Notes under the pieces: generated by a model
What the model saw: the letters and a program-made list of their open reading frames with translations, nothing else
Databases searched by the model: none
Told to the model about the DNA's origin: nothing
Part shown: positions 2,516 to 45,694 of the stretch, one piece after another
How the letters are laid out: each line of letters starts with the position of its first letter
Position numbering within the stretch: position 1 is the first letter of the stretch
From: an uncultured Nitrosomonas sp.
GTDB lineage: Bacteria; Pseudomonadota; Gammaproteobacteria; Burkholderiales; Nitrosomonadaceae
Assembly (NCBI GenBank): GCA_902826115.1
Contig: CADEDO010000001.1
Coordinates: 156,076-220,075, forward strand
DNA length: 64,000 nucleotides
Direction: 5' to 3'
Program-made: the position numbers and the translations under genes

Positions 2516-3307
2516 TCAGAATTCATGTTCTTGGCCAGGAAATTGACCCGTTTTGACGGCAGCAATATAGCTGCTGACCGCTGCCTGAATACTGTCGGCT
2601 CCTGACATGAAGTCTTTGACAAAGCGCGGTTTTTTACCCGAATACAGTCCCAGCATGTCATGCAACACTAAAACTTGAGCGGAGCAATGAGGGCCGGCGC
2701 CGATACCGATCGTAGGAATGGAAAGCGATTCGGTGATCTTGCTGGCCAGTGTTGCCGGAACCACTTCCATAACCAGTAACCCAGCACCTGCTTTCTCCAG
2801 TATTTGGGCATCCTCCAGGAGTTGTTGCGCAGATTGCTGCGAATTTCCTTGAAGTTTATAGCCACCCAACTGATGAATCGATTGAGGAGTCAAGCCAATG
2901 TGCGCACAAACGGGAATGCCGCGTTGAGTCAGAAATCGAATCGTATCCGCCATGATTTGACCACCTTCGATTTTGACCATATGCGCCCCTGCAGTCATAA
3001 TTCTGGCAGCATTCTCGAATGCTTGCTCAGGGGAGATCTGGTAGCTGCCAAACGGCATGTCGGCCATGATGAATGCCTTGCTGGAACCCTGCGCAACACA
3101 GCGCGTGTGATAAACCATGTCATCCAACGTCACCGCTAAGGTGGTGCTTTTTCCTTGCAATACATTGCCTAACGAATCACCGACCAGCAAAACTTCAACA
3201 CCCGCATTTTCCAATACCATTGCAAAAATAGCGTCATAACAAGTCAGAACCGTAAATCTCTCATGGCTCTCAGCCATTTTTTGCAGCGTGGTCTGGGTAA
3301 TTCTCAT
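2516..3307 (-). CDS. panB: 3-methyl-2-oxobutanoate hydroxymethyltransferase
   Basis: PanB transfers a hydroxymethyl group from methylene-tetrahydrofolate to 2-oxoisovalerate, making ketopantoate. The 263-residue protein is full length. Visible family features are the metal-binding aspartates in VGDSLGN (D44) and ADMPFG (D83), E114 in the KIEGG motif, and the catalytic-position glutamate in VMEVVP (E181). It is the first gene of the minus-strand panB-panC(-dnaA) group; the 448-bp gap before it separates it from the divergent peptide-export locus. Confidence 0.97.
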
Positions 3308-3755
3308 CGGGTATAAGGATATTTAATTAATTCTTTGCCATTATCAAAAACTTGCTTCACTTGAAACAAATTACCTAACACAAACAGGAATGTAAAGTGC
3401 TGTGCAATTATATCTCGGCAAGCTCATGAAAATGCACTGGGTATATTCAAAGGATATTTCAATATTCAGCACGGATGTCTATTAGGGTAGTGCTTATTAT
3501 TCTTCGGAATCGTTTTAAAGTATCTACATCCCAGCAATCACCAGACTGCTAAGCAAAGTTCAATCCAATGTGATTTATCACACAGCCAGCCTAAGCGGAT
3601 AGCGCTATTTTGAATACGCAGTTAATGCTTACATGCGGAGAAATCAGCATGAGGTTGAAAATCCTGACTGCCATGCATGTCTTGCTTGCAGATCATGGTG
3701 GCCATTCTGTATGCAAGGTTTTATTTTGGCCACAAACAAACTTAAGGAGTATGTC
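3308..3755. other. divergent intergenic region upstream of panB and the peptide locus
   Basis: No convincing gene is present. It must carry the panB promoter on one side and the promoter of the first double-glycine peptide on the other. The clearest element is the 17-bp operator-like motif at 3569-3585. An in-frame upstream ATG at 3633 could extend the peptide, but the good Shine-Dalgarno site AAGGAGT at 3744-3750 selects the ATG at 3756. Confidence 0.6.
3569..3585 (+). promoter_or_regulatory. palindromic operator-like motif, copy 1
   Basis: TGTGATTTATCACACAG. Its core TGTGAT-TT-ATCACA is a perfect palindrome of the CRP/FNR type in arm sequence, but the arms are four bases apart (TGTGA-N4-TCACA) rather than the six of a classical CRP site. 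Almost the same 17-mer recurs at 4471-4487 ahead of the second peptide gene. It lies 187 bp before the first peptide start codon. A regulator of the CRP/FNR family is a reasonable guess. Confidence 0.55.
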
Positions 3756-4010
3756 ATGAATACAAAGCAAAAGCCTGCCTGCATTCAGAGTGAAGAGATT
3801 GCAGCAGTCGCACAACAAGGCGTCAAACGTGCACTGGCGGCACGTAAACACATGGTTGAATTGTCTTCAGAACAGGCTGCAGATGTTGGTGGTGGACTAT
3901 ATGAATTGTATTTTCCAATTATTGCAGGAGGTATATGGGGTCCTATCGATATTTTCCAACCTTCTATTGAAGTTAATTCCTTCAATATTAATTTGCAACA
4001 ATATTCATAA
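3756..4010 (+). CDS. double-glycine leader peptide precursor, 84 aa (bacteriocin/microcin-like)
   Basis: An 84-residue precursor with a strong ribosome site AAGGAGT six bases before its ATG. The first 46 residues look like a long leader: a charged helical stretch (SEEIAAVAQQGVKRALAARK) ending in ELSSEQAADVGG, the classic double-glycine cleavage pattern with hydrophobic or acidic residues at the usual spacing. Cleavage after G46 would release a hydrophobic 38-residue core, aromatic and Ile-rich, containing a second GG (IIAGGIWGP) and no cysteine. An exporter with a C39 leader peptidase is encoded 2 kb downstream, so export with leader removal is the likely fate. I do not recognise the core; antibacterial activity or signalling are both possible. 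No immunity gene is evident. Confidence 0.8.
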   Translation: MNTKQKPACIQSEEIAAVAQQGVKRALAARKHMVELSSEQAADVGGGLYELYFPIIAGGIWGPIDIFQPSIEVNSFNINLQQYS

Positions 4011-4019
4011 GGATTCTTT

Positions 4020-4454
4020 ATGAAAACCGAACCCGAAACACTTTGCCCAAGCGCTCAGCCAAACTGGGAAGGCGCGCAGGTTTTCGCGGTCGTCGGTGGA
4101 ACGCCAGATAGGCCGGAAACGGCCTATCTGGATCAAGCCCAGCCGGTGACTGATGAATTGCTTGCTATGGCTGCACCTGTTGCACCGGCGGAAGTGTTCC
4201 GCTTTTCTGCACCTTGTGCCAAAGGCGCCTGTGCTCATTTTGATGAAGGTGGTCAAAGCTGCCGATTGGCTGAAAAAACGGTTCGTTTAGCACCGGTTGT
4301 ATTTGAAAAACTCCCCAAATGTGCCATTCGCAATGATTGTCGTTGGTGGAAACAGGAAGGCGTATCGGCTTGTAGGCGCTGTCCGCAGGTTGTAACGGTG
4401 AATTACGATCCTTCGCTTGAAATGCGGCAGGCGGCTGATCCTAAGGTTAAATAA
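4020..4454 (+). CDS. cysteine-rich protein of unknown function accompanying the leader peptide
   Basis: A 144-residue soluble protein starting nine bases after the 84-aa peptide gene, with AAGGATTC as a possible ribosome site, so almost certainly co-transcribed. There is no signal peptide or membrane segment. Eight cysteines are present (9, 66, 71, 81, 101, 107, 118, 121), seven of them in the C-terminal half with the spacing C-x4-C-x9-C-x19-C-x5-C-x10-C-x2-C, plus aromatic motifs CAHFDEG and CRWWKQEG and the end CRRCPQVV. This spacing suggests an iron-sulfur or zinc-binding fold. I do not recognise a named family. Its position suggests a role in peptide maturation, regulation or self-protection, but nothing in the sequence proves any of these. 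Confidence 0.85.
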   Translation: MKTEPETLCPSAQPNWEGAQVFAVVGGTPDRPETAYLDQAQPVTDELLAMAAPVAPAEVFRFSAPCAKGACAHFDEGGQSCRLAEKTVRLAPVVFEKLPKCAIRNDCRWWKQEGVSACRRCPQVVTVNYDPSLEMRQAADPKVK

Positions 4455-4470
4455 ATAACCTGCTGATTCA

Positions 4471-4487
4471 TGTGATTTTTCACACAG
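4471..4487 (+). promoter_or_regulatory. palindromic operator-like motif, copy 2
   Basis: TGTGATTTTTCACACAG differs by one base from the motif at 3569-3585, including the flanking CACAG. It lies 16 bp after the stop codon of the cysteine-rich protein and 173 bp before the 39-aa peptide gene, about the same distance from its gene as copy 1 (187 bp from its ATG to the motif start). The repetition argues for a shared regulator of both peptide transcripts. Confidence 0.55.
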
Positions 4488-4599
4488 AAAAATTTCTATA
4501 AATCAGTCATTCTGTACTTGGAAATTGATCATTACTTAAAAAATAGTGAAAGCTTTCCAAAGCTGTTGGAAGTTATTTAAACCTTATCTGCGGAAAATG

Positions 4600-4645
4600 G
4601 TAGTCGCACCGCAGGCAAGACTCAATTGAGCGACTACAAATTTTT
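4600..4645 (+). terminator. hairpin followed by T-rich tract ahead of the 39-aa peptide
   Basis: GTAGTCGC (4600-4607) pairs with GCGACTAC (4630-4637), and a smaller palindrome CTCAATTGAG fills part of the loop. A tract AAATTTTTATTTT follows immediately. It may be a terminator for the upstream peptide unit or an attenuator or stabilising structure in the leader of the 39-aa peptide mRNA, whose ribosome site begins at 4651. Confidence 0.45.
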
Positions 4646-4659
4646 ATTTTAAGGAGAAT

Positions 4660-4779
4660 ATGATGAGAGAACTAAATTCACAAGAAATTAATGAGATAGC
4701 TGGAGGTAATATTTTCCATGATATCGGTGATTGGTTTATCGGTGTCGGAAATTGGATCGATAGCTGGTGGCCATTCTAA
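4660..4779 (+). CDS. short double-glycine peptide precursor, 39 aa (microcin-like)
   Basis: A 39-codon gene with a strong ribosome site (AAGGAG, 4651-4656) and two adjacent ATGs at 4660 and 4663. The leader MMRELNSQEINEIAGG is a textbook short double-glycine leader. Cleavage after G16 leaves a 23-residue core starting NIFHDIGDW and ending WWPF, with four tryptophans, several glycines, three aspartates and no cysteine. The HlyD adaptor and C39-peptidase exporter genes follow on the same strand, matching the layout of class II microcin loci. Size, leader and context make this a real gene; the activity of the peptide (antibacterial or signal) is not known and I see no immunity gene beside it. 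Confidence 0.85.
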   Translation: MMRELNSQEINEIAGGNIFHDIGDWFIGVGNWIDSWWPF

Positions 4780-4810
4780 AAAGTAATAGCTTAAAAATTA
4801 CTTGCAGTTA

Positions 4811-4838
4811 CCTAATACCGCGCCGGCGCGGTATTAGG
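4811..4838. terminator. perfect 28-bp palindrome after the 39-aa peptide
   Basis: CCTAATACCGCGCC is followed at once by its exact reverse complement, giving 14 perfect base pairs with no loop (a 15th pair forms at 4810/4839). The downstream bases TTCAATCATT are only weakly T-rich. A structure between the peptide and exporter genes could end most transcripts or protect the peptide mRNA, so that peptide is made in excess over exporter. An operator role is also possible because the palindrome is symmetric in DNA. Confidence 0.5.
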
Positions 4839-4896
4839 TTCAATCATTGATCTACAGATATGAATGAGTTAAGTATGGAAAATATGATAAACAAAT

Positions 4897-4913
4897 ATTC
4901 ACTTAAAGTGAAT
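4897..4913. promoter_or_regulatory. palindrome immediately upstream of the HlyD-type gene
   Basis: ATTCACTTAAAGTGAAT has 8-bp perfect arms around a single central base and ends 16 bp before the adaptor start codon. It may be an operator for the exporter genes. There is no clear Shine-Dalgarno site in the same stretch. Its sequence differs from the TGTGA motifs upstream of the peptides. Confidence 0.35.
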
Positions 4914-4929
4914 TGATCGTTTGTAAATC

Positions 4930-6177
4930 ATGAGTACTCCATTATTTCGAACGAAAGCCCTAGCTCACCAACAAGATCGCCTGCATGGTGAAATATTGAT
5001 TGCTCGATCACCAACCATACGACTATTTGTTTCGGTTACTGCTTTATTTGCTATTGCTTTAGTGAGCTTTGCCTTCTGGGGTGAATACACGCGTAAGGAA
5101 CATGTTGCAGGCTATTTGTCCCCAACACAGGGCATGATCAAGATGTACTCTCCTCAAGTCGGTACTGTACTTATAAAACATGTGGATGAAGGGCAATTGG
5201 TCAAGCAGGGAGATGTACTGTTGACGATTTCCAGTGAACGAGCCACTTCTACAACACGAGAAACCCAAGCGGCTATGCTTGCGGAACTCAAGCAACGTCG
5301 TGATAGTTTGCGCTTGGAGCAAGGCAAGCAGCAAGAAATTGATGCGCTGACAGGCACCGGTATTGTTGGACGAATTCGTGGATTGGAAACTGAAATCCGT
5401 GAAGCGCAAGCACAAATGGCACTCCAATCCAGCCGCGTGACCAGTGCTGAACGTATGGTAGCTCGATATGAAAAATTACTTTTAGAACGTTTCGTTTCCG
5501 ATGTGGCATTGCAGGAAAAGCAGGATGAATTGATCAGCCAGCGTAATCAGCTTGCGCAATTAAAGCGTAGTATTACCAGTCTGAACCGTGAATTGAGTAG
5601 TTCACGAGTAGAGTTATCCACTTCTGGTTTAAAACGCGATAACAACACATCGGCAATCGAACGGCAGATTTCCGAGCTGGAGCAACAGTTAACCGAGACC
5701 GATGCGCGACGTAGTATTGTTTTGACGGCACCCGCAGATGGAACAGTAACTACTATATTGGTTGAACTTGGACAAACAGCCAATCCCAATACACCATTAC
5801 TTTCCATTTTACCTGCAGGTGCTGAATTACAAGCACAATTACTCGTGCCAACAAGAGCAGCAGGTTTTATCAAACCAACTCAGCAAGTTTCATTACGCTA
5901 TCAAGCCTTTCCTTATCAGCGCTTCGGGCATCATCTGGGAGAGGTCGTTGAAATTGGGCGCACGGTCATTCAGCCTAATGAATCGAGTTTGCCGCTATCC
6001 ATTCAGGAATCGGTATACCGCGTTACCGTTCGTTTGCCACAGCAAAAAGTTCATGCCTATGGACAGGCGATGCCTTTGCAGGCAGGCATGGTACTCGATG
6101 CTGATATTCATATGGATCGGCGCCGTCTGATTGAGTGGGTATTTGATCCTTTACTATCGATTACGGGCCGTATTTAA
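4930..6177 (+). CDS. HlyD-family periplasmic adaptor of a peptide exporter
   Basis: A 415-residue membrane fusion protein that would bridge the inner-membrane ABC exporter and an outer-membrane TolC-type channel. Layout: short cytoplasmic N-terminus, one transmembrane helix (~30-50, LFVSVTALFAIALVSFAFWG), first half of a lipoyl-like domain (GTVLIKHVDEGQLVKQGDVLLTI), a long coiled coil (~105-265, rich in E, Q, R and L), second lipoyl half (APADGTVTTILVELGQTANPN) and a beta-barrel domain. The length fits CvaA/LktD-like adaptors. It ends 12 bp before the ABC exporter gene, forming one operon with it. A TolC-like protein is encoded 10 kb away at 16642-17979. The start has no obvious ribosome site. 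Confidence 0.93.
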   Translation: MSTPLFRTKALAHQQDRLHGEILIARSPTIRLFVSVTALFAIALVSFAFWGEYTRKEHVAGYLSPTQGMIKMYSPQVGTVLIKHVDEGQLVKQGDVLLTISSERATSTTRETQAAMLAELKQRRDSLRLEQGKQQEIDALTGTGIVGRIRGLETEIREAQAQMALQSSRVTSAERMVARYEKLLLERFVSDVALQEKQDELISQRNQLAQLKRSITSLNRELSSSRVELSTSGLKRDNNTSAIERQISELEQQLTETDARRSIVLTAPADGTVTTILVELGQTANPNTPLLSILPAGAELQAQLLVPTRAAGFIKPTQQVSLRYQAFPYQRFGHHLGEVVEIGRTVIQPNESSLPLSIQESVYRVTVRLPQQKVHAYGQAMPLQAGMVLDADIHMDRRRLIEWVFDPLLSITGRI

Positions 6178-6189
6178 AAGGTTAAAAAT

Positions 6190-8367
6190 ATGCTTAATTT
6201 TTCCTTTAGCCATCGTGTGCCAGTGATCTTGCAAACAGAAGCTTCTGAGTGTGGGCTAGCTTGTATTGCCATGATCATTAGCTATCATGGTCACCGCATC
6301 GATTTGGCTTCGTTGCGAGCACGCCATGCCGTTTCACCGCGTGGCTCGACCTTGGCTGATTTAATGAAAGTTGCAGGCCAACTCAAATTTTCATCTCGTC
6401 CTTTACGGCTTGGTCTAGAAGATTTACCTGAGCTTAAGCTGCCTTGTATGCTGCATTGGGATTTCAATCATTTTGTGGTATTGACACAGGTCCAGGGTAA
6501 TCGGGTCATACTGCATGATCCCGCCGTCGGTGAGCGTGAAATGCCTTTAGCAGAATTTTCTAAACATTTCACCGGAGTGGCTTTAGAGCTAACCCCTACG
6601 AGTGAATTTAAGCCTCGTAACGATATTCGCAAGGTAAAATTGTCAACACTTATCGGTCGTTTGCAGGGATTAGGCGGAACGGTTACGCAGATCCTGATTC
6701 TGGCTTTGGTATTGCAGCTTTTCGCCATCCTGGCGCCCTTTTATATGCAATGGGTTGTGGATCAGGCATTGGTTGCACAAGATTATGATCTGGTTACCGT
6801 GCTGGGAATTGGGTTTCTACTACTTGCCGTGGTGCAGACCGGTGTGACGGTTTTGCGTGCATGGGTTTTAATGGTGCTGGGGACGACGCTAAATTTACAA
6901 ATGATCACGAATTTATTTTGTCATTTGATTCGCCTGCCCATGAGCTGGTTTGATAAACGCCATGTCGGCGATATTGTGTCACGTTTTGATTCACTCAATG
7001 CTATCCAACGCACCTTAACAACTGGATTTCTGGAAGCATTGATCGATGGTGTTATGGTTATTGTGACTCTTGGCATGATGCTGTTTTACAGTATCAAGCT
7101 AGCGCTGATCGCGATTGTTGCTGCTACGATTTATGCCTTGCTGCGTTTTGCCTTATACCGTCCGTTTCGACTTGCTACCGAAGATCAAATTGTTCGAGGT
7201 GCTAAACAACAAAGCCATTTCCTTGAAACCATCAGAGGTATGCAAAGCATCAAACTGTTTGCTCATGAATCTCCCCGCACGGCTACTTGGCAAAATCTGA
7301 CCGTCGATCAGTTCAATGCCGGTATTCGAACCCAGCGTATGGGCATTCTATATCAAGGATTGAATGGTCTTTTGTTTGGAGTGGAGAATATTATTACCAT
7401 TTGGTTAGGCGCAATGTTGGTTTTGGATACCGCGAACGGCAGTGGTTTTTCGATAGGAATGTTGTTCGCTTTCATTGCTTATAAAACTCAATTTGTACAG
7501 CGAGTGGCTGCATTGATTGAAAAAGGGCTGGAATTGCGTATGCTGGGATTGCATACAGAGCGGGTGGGTGATATTGCATTGACACCCGTAGAGCAGTTCG
7601 ATGAATCAGGTAGTGTCAGTGCGGTTCCCCTCGATGGTCGAATCGAAGTAAAGCAAGTCGCTTTTCGTCATGCAGAAACAGATCCTTTGGTGCTGCAAGA
7701 TGTCAGTTTCAGTATCCAGGCAGGTGAGTCAGTGGCTATCATAGGACCATCGGGTTGTGGTAAAACAACCCTGGTTAAACTCATGTTAGGGTTGTTACAG
7801 CCAACCGCGGGAAGTATTGAAGTCGATGGTGTTCCACTAGCGCGCCTGGGTATTACAAGATATCGCCAAGCAGTGGCTAGTGTCATGCAGGATGATCAGT
7901 TATTTGCCGGCTCAATTGCTGAAAATATTTGTTTTTTCGATTCTCAAGTGGATTACAAACGAATTGAGGCCAGTGCCCGGCTAGCAGCAATCCACGAAGA
8001 TATTGTCGCCATGTCAATGCAATATAATACGTTAGTGGGTGATATGGGAGCTGTTTTGTCAGGTGGTCAGAAGCAGCGCCTGTTACTTGCGCGTGCGCTG
8101 TACCGCCAACCCAGCATTCTTTTTCTGGATGAGGCCACCAGCCATTTGGATATTGCAAGAGAACGAAGTGTGAATGAAGCTATCAGTACACTTAAACTGA
8201 CTCGTATCATTGTGGCGCACCGTCCGGAAACGATAGCCAGCGCAGACAGGGTGATTGTGCTAAATGGTGGAAAAATTGTTAAAGATGCTCCCTCTGAATT
8301 ATTTGTTCGTCCCTTGGGGTCGATACAATCTTCCGAGAATGAGGAGTCGGTTGCGGTAGCTAGTTAA
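6190..8367 (+). CDS. peptidase-containing ABC exporter (C39 leader peptidase, CvaB-like)
   Basis: A 725-residue bifunctional exporter that cuts double-glycine leaders and pumps the core peptide across the inner membrane. The N-terminal C39 cysteine peptidase (~8-130) has an intact active site: Q15, C21 in SECGLAC, H94 in DFNHFVVL and D110 in LHDPAVG. A six-helix ABC transmembrane domain spans ~160-450. The nucleotide-binding domain has Walker A GPSGCGKTT (~519), signature LSGGQKQR (~624) and Walker B ILFLDEA (~645) with an H-loop VAHRPE. It is the last gene of the plus-strand locus and meets folK tail to tail 8 bp later. The two upstream GG peptides are the obvious substrates; the 443-aa RTX protein at 22169 has no GG leader and is a less likely one. 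Confidence 0.95.
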   Translation: MLNFSFSHRVPVILQTEASECGLACIAMIISYHGHRIDLASLRARHAVSPRGSTLADLMKVAGQLKFSSRPLRLGLEDLPELKLPCMLHWDFNHFVVLTQVQGNRVILHDPAVGEREMPLAEFSKHFTGVALELTPTSEFKPRNDIRKVKLSTLIGRLQGLGGTVTQILILALVLQLFAILAPFYMQWVVDQALVAQDYDLVTVLGIGFLLLAVVQTGVTVLRAWVLMVLGTTLNLQMITNLFCHLIRLPMSWFDKRHVGDIVSRFDSLNAIQRTLTTGFLEALIDGVMVIVTLGMMLFYSIKLALIAIVAATIYALLRFALYRPFRLATEDQIVRGAKQQSHFLETIRGMQSIKLFAHESPRTATWQNLTVDQFNAGIRTQRMGILYQGLNGLLFGVENIITIWLGAMLVLDTANGSGFSIGMLFAFIAYKTQFVQRVAALIEKGLELRMLGLHTERVGDIALTPVEQFDESGSVSAVPLDGRIEVKQVAFRHAETDPLVLQDVSFSIQAGESVAIIGPSGCGKTTLVKLMLGLLQPTAGSIEVDGVPLARLGITRYRQAVASVMQDDQLFAGSIAENICFFDSQVDYKRIEASARLAAIHEDIVAMSMQYNTLVGDMGAVLSGGQKQRLLLARALYRQPSILFLDEATSHLDIARERSVNEAISTLKLTRIIVAHRPETIASADRVIVLNGGKIVKDAPSELFVRPLGSIQSSENEESVAVAS

Positions 8368-8375
8368 GATGGATT

Positions 8376-8870
8376 TTAAGTATTAATTTGTTCCAGCTGT
8401 TGTTCATGGCACGCTACCAATAGAGGAGCGATATGACCCAAGCCGGGAATGTGGCAATCCGGTGCAATTTCGAATAGGGGTTTTAGCACGAATGCGCGTT
8501 GTGACATGCGCGGGTGCGGCAATGTTAATTTCTCATCATGGCATTGCAAATCATCGTACATCAGTATATCGAGATCCAGCGTACGCGGCGCGTTTAGAGA
8601 TTCACGCAAGCGTCCGTGCTGCTGTTCAATACTTAGCAACGCATTGAGCAAATCGTGGGGCGTAAGGCGGGTTTCGATCAGGGCTACCGCATTGATAAAA
8701 TCCGGCTGATCCAATCGGCCGACCGGCGCACTTTTATAAAGTGAAGATTGGCGCACCAAGTCGATGCCAGAAAGTTGCTTTAATTCATCGAATGCCTGCC
8801 GCACCTGGGAAATCGGATTTTCCAGATTGCTTCCCAATGCGATGTATGCCTGACTGGTTTGTTTATTCAT
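8376..8870 (-). CDS. folK: 2-amino-4-hydroxy-6-hydroxymethyldihydropteridine pyrophosphokinase
   Basis: FolK moves pyrophosphate from ATP onto hydroxymethyl-dihydropterin in folate synthesis. The start at 8870 (MNKQTSQAYIALGSNL) gives 164 residues, the family's usual size; a longer reading from 9002 would add an arginine-rich tail that is really the out-of-frame end of pcnB. Family signatures are YIALGSNLENP near the N-terminus, SSLYKSAPVG, and the metal and ATP motif PRTLDLDILMYDD. Its first codons overlap the last codons of pcnB by 8 bp, so translation is probably coupled; pcnB-folK is a common proteobacterial pair. Confidence 0.95.
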   Translation of the reverse strand: MNKQTSQAYIALGSNLENPISQVRQAFDELKQLSGIDLVRQSSLYKSAPVGRLDQPDFINAVALIETRLTPHDLLNALLSIEQQHGRLRESLNAPRTLDLDILMYDDLQCHDEKLTLPHPRMSQRAFVLKPLFEIAPDCHIPGLGHIAPLLVACHEQQLEQINT

Positions 8871-10272
8871 GGCCAGTAGCGATATTGCTGGATGAGTTTT
8901 CCAGATGGTGTGTTTGATCAGATGCAGGTTTTTTGCGCGTGCGTTTTCTCTTACCTTTTTTGGGCGATACTTGCTTGGGCAGCATCGCCTCGCGTTTTTC
9001 ATTATCTACGGCAAGAAATGTTTTCCACCATTCGCCCAATTCCATGCTTAGTTCACCGCTTTCACAACGCAACAACATGAAATCGTAAGCAGCACGAAAA
9101 CGCGGATGGGTTATCAAGCGGAATGGCTTGCGTCCGGTGCGGATCTCAAAACGCGGTTGCATGGCCCATATTTCTTGTATGACTGCATCAAAGCGGCGTG
9201 GAATAGCGAGTTTTTTGTGTTGTAACGCAAGAATTTCATCCATTGCTCTGAATAAAGCGAGCATTGGTTTCTCCCCGGAAGCCTGGAGGGAATGCCAGGT
9301 GGATAGCACTTCATGCCATAACAGGATGGCAAACAAAAACCCGGGCGAGACCGGTTTATTTTGTTTGATGCGCTCATCGGTGTTTCTGAGCGCAACCGTG
9401 ATGAAGCGTTCACCCAGAGGTTGTTCGAGGATGATATCGAGCATGGGCAAAAGGCCGTGATGCAGGCCTCGCGCTCGCAAATCAATCACGCAAGGTAATG
9501 AATGCCCGGACAATAACAGCTTCAACATTTCATCAAACAAGCGGGATGGCGGAACGTTTTGCAATAAAGGCGCCAGATCGCCAATAGGTTTGGCAGTTTC
9601 CGCTTCTATCTGCATGTTCAATTTCGAGGCCAATCGAACCGCACGCAACATGCGGATAGGGTCTTCGCGGAAACGTTGTATCGGCTCGCCAATGATGCGC
9701 AGCTTTTTCGCTTTGATATCTTCATAACCGTTCAGATAATCAAGAATCTCTTCCTTGGAAGGATCATAAAAAAGCGCATTAATCGTGAAATCGCGGCGCA
9801 CCGCATCCTCTTCCTGACTGCCAAAAACATTGTCGCGCAATAGGCGGCCGTGCTGGTCGGTCAGCGAGATCGATGCATCTTCATTTTCATCCACGGGTGA
9901 ATGGCCACGAAAAGTTGATACTTCCACAGTTTCTGAGCCACACATGACATGCACCAGACGGAAGCGTCGGCCAATGATGCGTGACCTGCGAAAAATATGA
10001 TGCACTTCTTCGGGAGTCGCGTTGGTTGCCACATCGAAATCTTTGGGGGTTAACCCCAGCAATAAATCACGCGCAGCACCTCCGACAATGTAAGCCGAAA
10101 ACCCCGCCTGTTGCAGGTTGGTCGTGATTTTTAACGCACAAGGACTAATCTGGTTGCGTCGGATGCCATGATGTTTGAACGGAATGATGCTTAGCTTTGC
10201 GATGGATTGAGAAACAGGGATCGCTACAGGGGCTTTGCGGCTGAATACTTTGCGAAGAAATTTACGGATCAT
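8863..10272 (-). CDS. pcnB: poly(A) polymerase I
   Basis: PcnB adds 3' A-tails to RNA and so marks it for decay. The 469-residue protein has the class II nucleotidyltransferase head with VGGAARDLLLG (~63-73) and metal-binding KDFDVAT (D78, D80), the GRRFRLVHV motif, the RNA- and tRNA-nucleotidyltransferase core DFTINALFYDP, and a very basic C-terminal tail (KKGKRKRTRKKPA). These features and the N-terminal extension fit PcnB rather than a CCA-adding enzyme. It overlaps folK at its 3' end and is preceded by the RNase P RNA gene on the same strand. Confidence 0.94.
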   Translation of the reverse strand: MIRKFLRKVFSRKAPVAIPVSQSIAKLSIIPFKHHGIRRNQISPCALKITTNLQQAGFSAYIVGGAARDLLLGLTPKDFDVATNATPEEVHHIFRRSRIIGRRFRLVHVMCGSETVEVSTFRGHSPVDENEDASISLTDQHGRLLRDNVFGSQEEDAVRRDFTINALFYDPSKEEILDYLNGYEDIKAKKLRIIGEPIQRFREDPIRMLRAVRLASKLNMQIEAETAKPIGDLAPLLQNVPPSRLFDEMLKLLLSGHSLPCVIDLRARGLHHGLLPMLDIILEQPLGERFITVALRNTDERIKQNKPVSPGFLFAILLWHEVLSTWHSLQASGEKPMLALFRAMDEILALQHKKLAIPRRFDAVIQEIWAMQPRFEIRTGRKPFRLITHPRFRAAYDFMLLRCESGELSMELGEWWKTFLAVDNEKREAMLPKQVSPKKGKRKRTRKKPASDQTHHLENSSSNIATGHE

Positions 10273-10367
10273 TGCGAATGGCTGAAGGTATCCAACGTTA
10301 GTTATACAACGGGTATCCGTTTTTCATGAGTGTTCAATAGATGATATTCAGTTAAATTATAAAAAAG

Positions 10368-10668
10368 ATGAAGCTAGCCGATAAGCCGGGTTCTGTCTTG
10401 GACAGTCATTCCTCTAGATGCACAGTTACCCGTACATTCAAGCAACCTACCCGCAGACTCTGCGAGCAACATCTTCGCCTGCCTATTTGGTCTTGCTCCG
10501 GATGGAGGTTACCGCGTTTCACCGTAACTGAATACGCTCGTCTCTGTGGCCCTGTTCCTCACCTCACGGTGGACGGTCGTTAGCCGTCATCCTGCTCTAT
10601 GGAGCCCGGACTTTCCTCCCCCGCTGTTCGATTGAACAGCAGCAGCGACTGTCTAGCCAGCTTCGTCG
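10368..10668 (-). ncRNA. rnpB: RNase P RNA (bacterial class A, compact)
   Basis: The minus strand has the universal RNase P blocks in order: GAAGCTGGCTAGACAGTC at the 5' end, GAGGAAAGTCCGGGCTCCAT, an ACAGAGA block, GGTGAAACGCGGTAACC, GGAGCAAGACCAAATAG, and the 3' block GACAGAACCCGGCTTATCGG. The ends CGGCTAGCTTCATC and GACGAAGCTGGCTAG form helix P1, and a run of T follows the 3' end as terminator. At about 300 nt it is shorter than the 377-nt E. coli RNA; the sequence between GTGAAA and CGGTAA that holds P13 and P14 in E. coli is missing. Ends are placed by P1 pairing and are good to a few bases. Confidence 0.93.
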
Positions 10669-18721: not shown

Positions 18722-18790
18722 TTCTAGATCCGTATTCTTAATTGAGGTAAGACTTGCAATTATTTCACATTTCCATTAGCTTCACAGCAT

Positions 18791-20821
<2,031 letters not shown>

Positions 20822-45618: not shown

Positions 45619-45694
45619 GCCCTGGTAGCTCAGTGGATAGAGCAACCCCCTCCTAAGGGGTAGGTCGCACGTTCGATTCGTGTTCAGGGCGCCA
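45619..45694 (+). tRNA. tRNA-Arg (anticodon CCU)
   Basis: A 76-nt gene with encoded CCA end. The acceptor stem GCCCTGG pairs with TCAGGGC (one G-T pair), the D arm is GCTCAGTGGATAGAGC, the anticodon stem ACCCC/GGGGT frames the loop CTCCTAA with anticodon CCT, and the T arm is GCACGTTCGATTCGTGT. It reads AGG arginine codons. It stands exactly where housekeeping genes end and the restriction-modification block begins, a usual site for island insertion. Confidence 0.95.

Follow-up and report, generated by a model that had tools for sequence, protein, structure and literature searches.

A double-glycine precursor and an eight-cysteine partner protein recur as a cassette in and beyond a Nitrosomonas peptide export locus and may mark an unrecognised class of modified peptides

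We focus here on a compact peptide export locus in an uncultured Nitrosomonas sp. (assembly GCA_902826115.1, contig CADEDO010000001.1, positions 156,076 to 220,075), lying in a stretch of 64,000 nucleotides that we call the window. Between panB and folK, five genes on the + strand encode a first precursor peptide (precursor A), a 144-residue protein from an open reading frame (ORF) that we call ORF144, a second precursor (precursor B), a HlyD-type adaptor and an exporter that joins a peptidase C39 domain to an ATP-binding cassette (ABC) transporter. Judged from sequence, precursor A and ORF144 are a conserved two-gene cassette, and we are close to certain that they are a real unit. Distant bacteria, too, appear to pair ORF144 with a peptide gene of this kind, and the protein could be the marker of a class of modified peptides that is so far unrecognised. 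The locus is laid out as follows, GG denoting a double-glycine cleavage site.

2516-3307, complement: panB (PF02548), left flank of the locus
3569..3584, strand (.): CRP-type operator TGTGATTTATCACACA, 187 bp 5' of the precursor A ATG
3756-4010, +: precursor A, 84 residues; helical leader with QGVKRALAAR, GG(G) site, core LYELYFPIIAGGIWGPIDIFQPSIEVNSFNINLQQYS
4020-4454, +: ORF144, 144 residues, partner protein with eight Cys; proposed to bind metal and to act on precursor A as maturase or chaperone
4471..4486, strand (.): second CRP-type operator TGTGATTTTTCACACA, 189 bp 5' of the precursor B ATG
4660-4779, +: precursor B, 39 residues; 16-residue GG leader MMRELNSQEINEIAGG, Trp-rich core NIFHDIGDWFIGVGNWIDSWWPF
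4930-6177, +: HlyD-type periplasmic adaptor, 415 residues (PF13437, E 2.2e-18)
6190-8367, +: peptidase C39-ABC exporter, 725 residues (PF03412, PF00664, PF00005; Q15, C21, H94, D110)
8376-9002, complement: folK (PF01288), right flank of the locus

The genome_contigs set was scanned with an alignment of 21 ORF144 sequences, which gave 170 relatives, and the best 80 loci were examined; by record title, 48 of these are cyanobacterial and 32 are not. A hidden Markov model (HMM) of the precursor A leader was built from 11 seed leaders and refined in three iterations over 9,977 small ORFs drawn from the 80 loci, 17 further stretches and the window. With this model, a leader-family ORF is found at E < 0.01 in 69 of the 80 loci, and in 68 of the 80 one lies upstream of ORF144 on the same strand at E < 1e-5; reversed ORFs, used as a control, gave a best E of 1.2. 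All 86 hits at E < 1e-5 share the strand of ORF144, the median gap between ORF144 and the nearest upstream leader-family ORF is 55 bp, and 14 loci combine one ORF144 with two to five leader-family precursors. Because the 80 neighbourhoods had been chosen by ORF144, whole genomes were tested as well. Across 15 whole ORF144-bearing genomes, the leader alignment finds 17 places in 14 genomes, each of them 122-294 bp upstream of an ORF144 match. In 118 genomes evenly drawn from the Nostoc-type family of genome G448, leaders occur in 37 and ORF144 in 43; full-length ORF144 and leader are found together in 36, ORF144 only in one (G499), the leader only in one (G509) and neither in 80, this last group including six genomes with just a partial or broken ORF144, which have no leader. 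Of the 46 leader places in this sample, 42 share a strand with an ORF144 no more than 2.5 kb away, and 37 of these are upstream of it. Fisher's test on the co-occurrence gives 5e-28, a value that is descriptive and not a probability, since the genomes are related. A leader-like N-terminal extension of ORF144 in G499 was considered as a leader-partner fusion and dropped, the leader HMM giving 5.8 bits against 3.1 for the reverse. In one locus (L106), five leader-family precursors, one ORF144, seven Nif11-type precursors and one radical S-adenosylmethionine (SAM) gene stand in a row, and one precursor A variant (P0124) has a core read in a shifted frame after the GG site.

The original prediction, made from the letters of this stretch, had described an 84- and a 39-residue precursor with GG leaders and unlike cores. 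Both are present and their cores are indeed unlike: a GG-leader pattern matches two of the 598 small ORFs (30-130 residues) in the window, precursors A and B, against a mean of 0.05 over 20 shuffles of the ORF residues, the pattern having been written after the precursors were known. The HlyD-type adaptor and the C39 exporter that it named are borne out by family matches, and the peptidase site appears intact in the sequence, with C21, H94 and D110 verified. The adaptor scores 146.9 bits against TIGR01843, under the family cut-off of 208.65, and the exporter is the sole PF03412 (C39) match in the 3.09 Mb genome. The solved 'ABC-type bacteriocin transporter' 4ry2, which we take to be PCAT1, aligns with exporter residues 5-701. 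What had gone unmentioned is the 144-residue gene at 4020-4454, which starts 9 bases past the precursor A stop. Precursor A, whose leader ends in ...SSEQAADVGGG, has 18 relatives at E <= 0.01 in a protein search and matches no Pfam and no NCBIfam family at E <= 1, and thus no Nif11/NHLP leader domain. A ribosomal precursor with a conserved leader and a variable core, and a leader linked to a partner gene across genomes, are features by which ribosomally synthesized and post-translationally modified peptides (RiPPs) are recognised; both are found here, and ORF144 is the only candidate for a cluster-encoded modification protein in the operon.

A protein search finds 251 homologues of ORF144; neither Pfam nor NCBIfam gives a convincing match for ORF144 itself. 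Scans of 83 members returned no NCBIfam match at E <= 0.01 and one member with a Pfam match (E 0.0051), to a family whose function is unknown; rules based on these models would therefore miss the cassette. C66, C71, H73, C81, C101, R104, C107, C118 and C121 are identical in all 83 sequences, the eight-Cys pattern being conserved and the His invariant. The AlphaFold model is confident and matches no PDB chain at E <= 0.001; its longest helix has nine residues, and thus no membrane helix is predicted. A 99% match lies in the record of a Nitrosomonas metagenome-assembled genome (JAGOKN010000029.1, Go_SlAct_bin_519). ORF144 is also found in one Opitutaceae and one acidobacterial record, in which the leader HMM found no precursor.

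The cores vary far more than the partner protein. G027 has an exporter 99% identical to ours; compared with the window at the DNA level, its locus is 94% identical upstream, 84% in the leader and 40% in the core, against 96% in ORF144 and 97% in precursor B. An immunity protein, or any other protein fitted to a single core, would be expected to change along with it; ORF144 hardly did, and it thus behaves unlike an immunity protein. Cores were taken from 61 precursors that could be parsed by the cleavage pattern, the rest being dropped, and the motif P[IVLT][IVT].G, chosen after the cores had been seen, is present in 34 of the 60 distinct cores, against 2.1 on average and at most 7 in shuffles. 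The cores are rich in Ile, Pro and Gly, and just 22 of the 60 contain Cys. In three Thiolinea/Thiothrix loci (L068, L071, L093) [IV]-AGG stretches come after the leader helix, a GG site is missing from its usual position and no C39 gene lies within 7 kb; because the leader-ORF144 pair persists there, ORF144 is probably not a mere export accessory. Small ORFs that contain or end in NPQPLPP, some without a leader GG, were seen in L041, L057, L085 and L096, and L078 has three identical 52-residue GG ORFs in tandem at a spacing of about 284 bases (4574-5299 relative to the match).

The same place in related genomes holds different genes. Exporters at least 78% identical are found in nine of 49 genomes of the genus, our own included, and the panB/folK place is common to six of the nine; neither flank is in the fetched stretch for G006 and G009, and G019 has a short contig. 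Four genomes at panB/folK (G046, G028, G041, G031) and one elsewhere (G009) have a GG precursor followed by a radical SAM gene of 345-352 residues, which at E <= 1e-30 is found in 6 of 81 genomes. Scans of two members matched 73 and 80 NCBIfam families; the 25 shown for each all score below the cut-off. Since this sister gene sits in the ORF144 position, the slot between the first precursor and the exporter holds alternative maturase-like genes. The radical SAM variant (L033-L036, L039) shares with our locus the exporter and a GG precursor ahead of a maturase-like gene, and L033-L036 share the panB/folK place and the operator as well; its own features, on the other hand, are a leader without the ALAAR helix and the radical SAM protein that replaces ORF144, and its precursors score only 9e-5 to 1.5e-4 against the leader HMM. 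As a separate observation, the cores paired with the radical SAM gene in L033-L036 and L039 carry W-[LW]-IRGIP-[VA]-DIY, and the radical SAM family (about 350 residues; L033-L036, L039, L159) has no NCBIfam equivalog among those shown; the two may be another undescribed RiPP pair.

Read from the aligned loci, the precursor slots vary among close relatives. L052 (Nitrosomonas NEU_AOB_2, panB/folK place) has precursor A, ORF144, adaptor and exporter at 92%, 95%, 88% and 95% protein identity, and its slot B holds an unlike GG peptide of 47 residues, the DNA divergence extending beyond the slot (spacer 50%, slot 44%, start of the adaptor gene 66%). Good matches to precursor B in the 81 genomes are our own and that of G027 (97% identical); another 11, taken at E <= 1, are weak, and a stop interrupts the strongest of them (0.0034, G076). 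The two peptides are not inherited jointly, as those of a two-peptide (class IIb) bacteriocin would be: core A differs in G027 with B kept, and slot B differs in L052 with A kept. The original prediction would have been undermined if all relatives that keep the exporter lacked precursors. Instead, G027, L052, G046, G028, G041, G031 and G009 have GG precursors, several of them with exchanged cores; no precursor was picked up in G019, where the contig limits the upstream stretch, and the sole candidate in G006 is recognised by the GG pattern alone. Second, more distant exporter relatives were seen at G006:C1:1900704-1902782 (51% identity) and G069:C1:1966125-1968170 (49%).

Class II microcins, colicin V-type systems and other C39 exporters (4ry2, ComA) share with this locus the GG leader, the Cys-His-Asp C39-ABC exporter and the HlyD-type adaptor, and the class II microcin layout proposed originally holds for this export route. 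It does not hold for precursor A, because a leader family tied to ORF144 across phyla, together with a radical SAM gene in the ORF144 position of sister genomes, makes for a RiPP-like organisation. Colicin V-type export proceeds through CvaA-CvaB-TolC; the present operon, on the other hand, has no outer-membrane channel gene. As predicted, no immunity gene is recognised in it either: by eye in the ORF list, the panB-folK interval holds no further plausible gene besides ORF144, although a distant one may exist. Precursor A also differs from microcin precursors in its long leader and dedicated partner gene, a combination that we do not know from microcins.

In cyanobacteria, the cassette lies in more elaborate surroundings. 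Genes for HlyD, C39-ABC, TIGR04103-type radical SAM, Nif11, HopA1 or LxmK-like proteins are found, at least one of them, within 7 kb in 56 of the 80 loci; the last four kinds are restricted to cyanobacterial loci, and within that distance TIGR04103 radical SAM genes occur in 18 and Nif11 precursors in 19 of these 48. These names rest on representatives, since one member each of the radical SAM, Nif11, HopA1 and LxmK-like clusters was scanned; from its name and neighbours, we infer that the TIGR04103 maturase is of the PlpX type. Nif11-type and PlpXY-type splicease clusters of cyanobacteria likewise have GG-leader precursors near RiPP maturases and C39 export, but precursor A lacks a family match and ORF144 is not a radical SAM protein. 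ORF144 was considered as the splicease partner PlpY, given how often TIGR04103 genes lie nearby in cyanobacteria, and this is not supported: none of the 32 non-cyanobacterial loci has a TIGR04103-type radical SAM gene within 7 kb, and PlpY is described, in PMC11002830, as a truncated RiPP recognition element. The cyanobacterial bacteriocin clusters of groups I-VII of Wang et al. 2011 (PMC3140520) have the C39-ABC, HlyD, SurA-type rotamase and GG precursors in common with the present loci, and 150 of their 290 precursors are classed as 'other'; an eight-Cys partner protein is not described in the results section. A literature search, with most subscription papers and all supplements outside it, found no description of the precursor A-ORF144 cassette, and Nitrosomonas is not mentioned among the matches listed.

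We propose that the locus would make and export two ribosomal peptides. Cytosolic ORF144 would hold a metal or Fe-S site through its conserved Cys and His residues, recognise the leader of precursor A by its helical part, [GA]V.[RN]A.[AR]R, and modify, or fold and protect, the core around the P-I-I-x-G-G motif. Cleavage behind GG by the C39 domain would follow, and the product would leave through the ABC/HlyD pair together with an outer-membrane channel whose gene lies elsewhere; precursor B would use this exporter too, as an independent class II-type peptide that is probably not modified. We judge the odds to be even that ORF144 acts as a metal-binding maturase guided by the leader. Slightly more tentative is the broader proposal that precursor A and ORF144 could be the founding example of a new class of RiPP, whose leader-guided maturase, an eight-Cys and probably metal-binding protein, acts on P-[IV]-[IV]-x-G cores; the class would occur in both proteobacteria and cyanobacteria, whether or not GG export is present. 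Several points weigh against the mechanism proposed here. Twelve of the 80 loci have no leader-family ORF at E < 1e-5, at least two of them at contig edges. Eleven (L059, L066, L070, L084, L085, L086, L088, L096, L114, L122, L130) have no leader hit at all; the stretches of L070 and L088 start within a few hundred bases of the ORF144 match, and L085 and L096 have an ORF with an ALGAR/ALHAR helix but without a GG site where one usually lies. Furthermore, 24 of the 80 loci have none of the named transport and maturation genes within 7 kb, 26 of the 60 cores are without the motif, and ORF144 is rare around the window, being found in two of the 81 nearby genomes, our own included, and in one of 369 genomes of a class sample, again our own. 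The p-values are inflated, because iteration of the leader HMM drew on the very loci that were counted, the core pattern was picked post hoc and the genomes are related.

Since ORF144 is small and shows no recognised catalytic motif, it could just as well be a chaperone. ORF144 as a leader-binding chaperone, export adaptor or metal carrier without chemistry, with the exported peptide left unmodified, would fit its size of 144 residues, the lack of any family model or PDB fold that assigns catalysis, and cores that are Ile/Pro/Gly-rich and mostly free of Cys. The pair nevertheless persists in the three Thiolinea/Thiothrix loci without the usual GG site or a nearby C39 gene, and a recurrent core motif is easier to explain if it is acted upon. 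We regard this alternative as rather unlikely. Immunity genes often directly follow the precursor on the same strand, as ORF144 does, and no other candidate is recognised in the operon; yet an immunity protein for an ordinary antibacterial peptide A would have to remain nearly unchanged while its core was exchanged, serve up to five different precursors and act without a predicted membrane helix, the longest helix of the model being too short to suggest one, and we find this role highly improbable. A shade less probable still is a plain class II microcin or colicin V-type locus with two unmodified bacteriocins and ORF144 as an incidental gene: the GG leaders, C39-ABC exporter and HlyD adaptor agree with it, and slot B differs between strains as bacteriocin genes often do, but a linkage between ORF144 and the leader that crosses phyla is not incidental, and no immunity gene is recognised. 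The peptides may, with a probability that we also place on the low side, be secreted signals or surface or biofilm factors rather than weapons, sharing the same export route and compatible with ORF144 as a maturase. The lack of a recognised immunity gene and the CRP-type sites would suit such a role, and GG proteins are on record in Synechococcus biofilm development (PMC4997328); core exchange between close strains, on the other hand, resembles weapons under diversifying selection.

By sequence, a CRP-type site precedes each precursor gene. The exact sequence TGTGATTTNTCACA has two copies in the 3.09 Mb genome, at 3569 and 4471, both at the locus. Allowing one mismatch, both sites recur in G027 and L052, the second in L052 lying 190 bp 5' of the unlike slot-B peptide, and L033-L036 have one each, 172 bp before the precursor; no copy is found in L037, L038 and L045, and none near the precursor in L039. 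The first site in L051 and L052 is exactly TGTGAN6TCACA, which we take to be the CRP consensus. CRP-type sites as a general part of the cassette were examined upstream of the precursor in 25 loci, and they belong to some proteobacterial loci only: the 14-base form exceeds shuffles clearly in L051, L052 and L072 and less so in L056 and L076, and in none of the tested cyanobacterial loci. About 36 kb left of the locus (G000:C1:118781-125865, L165), genes for a CHASE2-cyclase, a FecR-TPR protein and a Crp-type regulator follow one another, a perfect CRP-type site lying between the cyclase and FecR-TPR genes; the FecR-TPR protein has 1114 residues and a C-terminal part that is barrel-like by eye, with a weak outer-membrane protein match. 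In four Methylomonas loci (L059, L062, L064, L066) this trio is found close to the cassette, its names there resting on scans of a single CHASE2 and a single Crp member. It was considered as a dedicated regulatory module and ruled out by its distribution, FecR-TPR matches at E <= 1e-40 being present in 42 of the 49 genus genomes against nine of 49 for the exporter. The circuit is thus probably general, with the peptide locus probably among its targets. Cyclic AMP/CRP-type control of the locus is likely, and the Crp-type regulator of the trio may be the one that binds the sites. Elsewhere in the window lie an RNase P RNA of class A (10366-10664, -), a thiamine pyrophosphate riboswitch (18786-18890, +) and a tRNA (45619-45691, +).

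RiPP genome mining depends on known maturase families. If ORF144 does perform chemistry, it is a small protein that can be tested directly by co-expression with its precursor in Escherichia coli, and the cassette would give an ammonia oxidiser a testable exported peptide.

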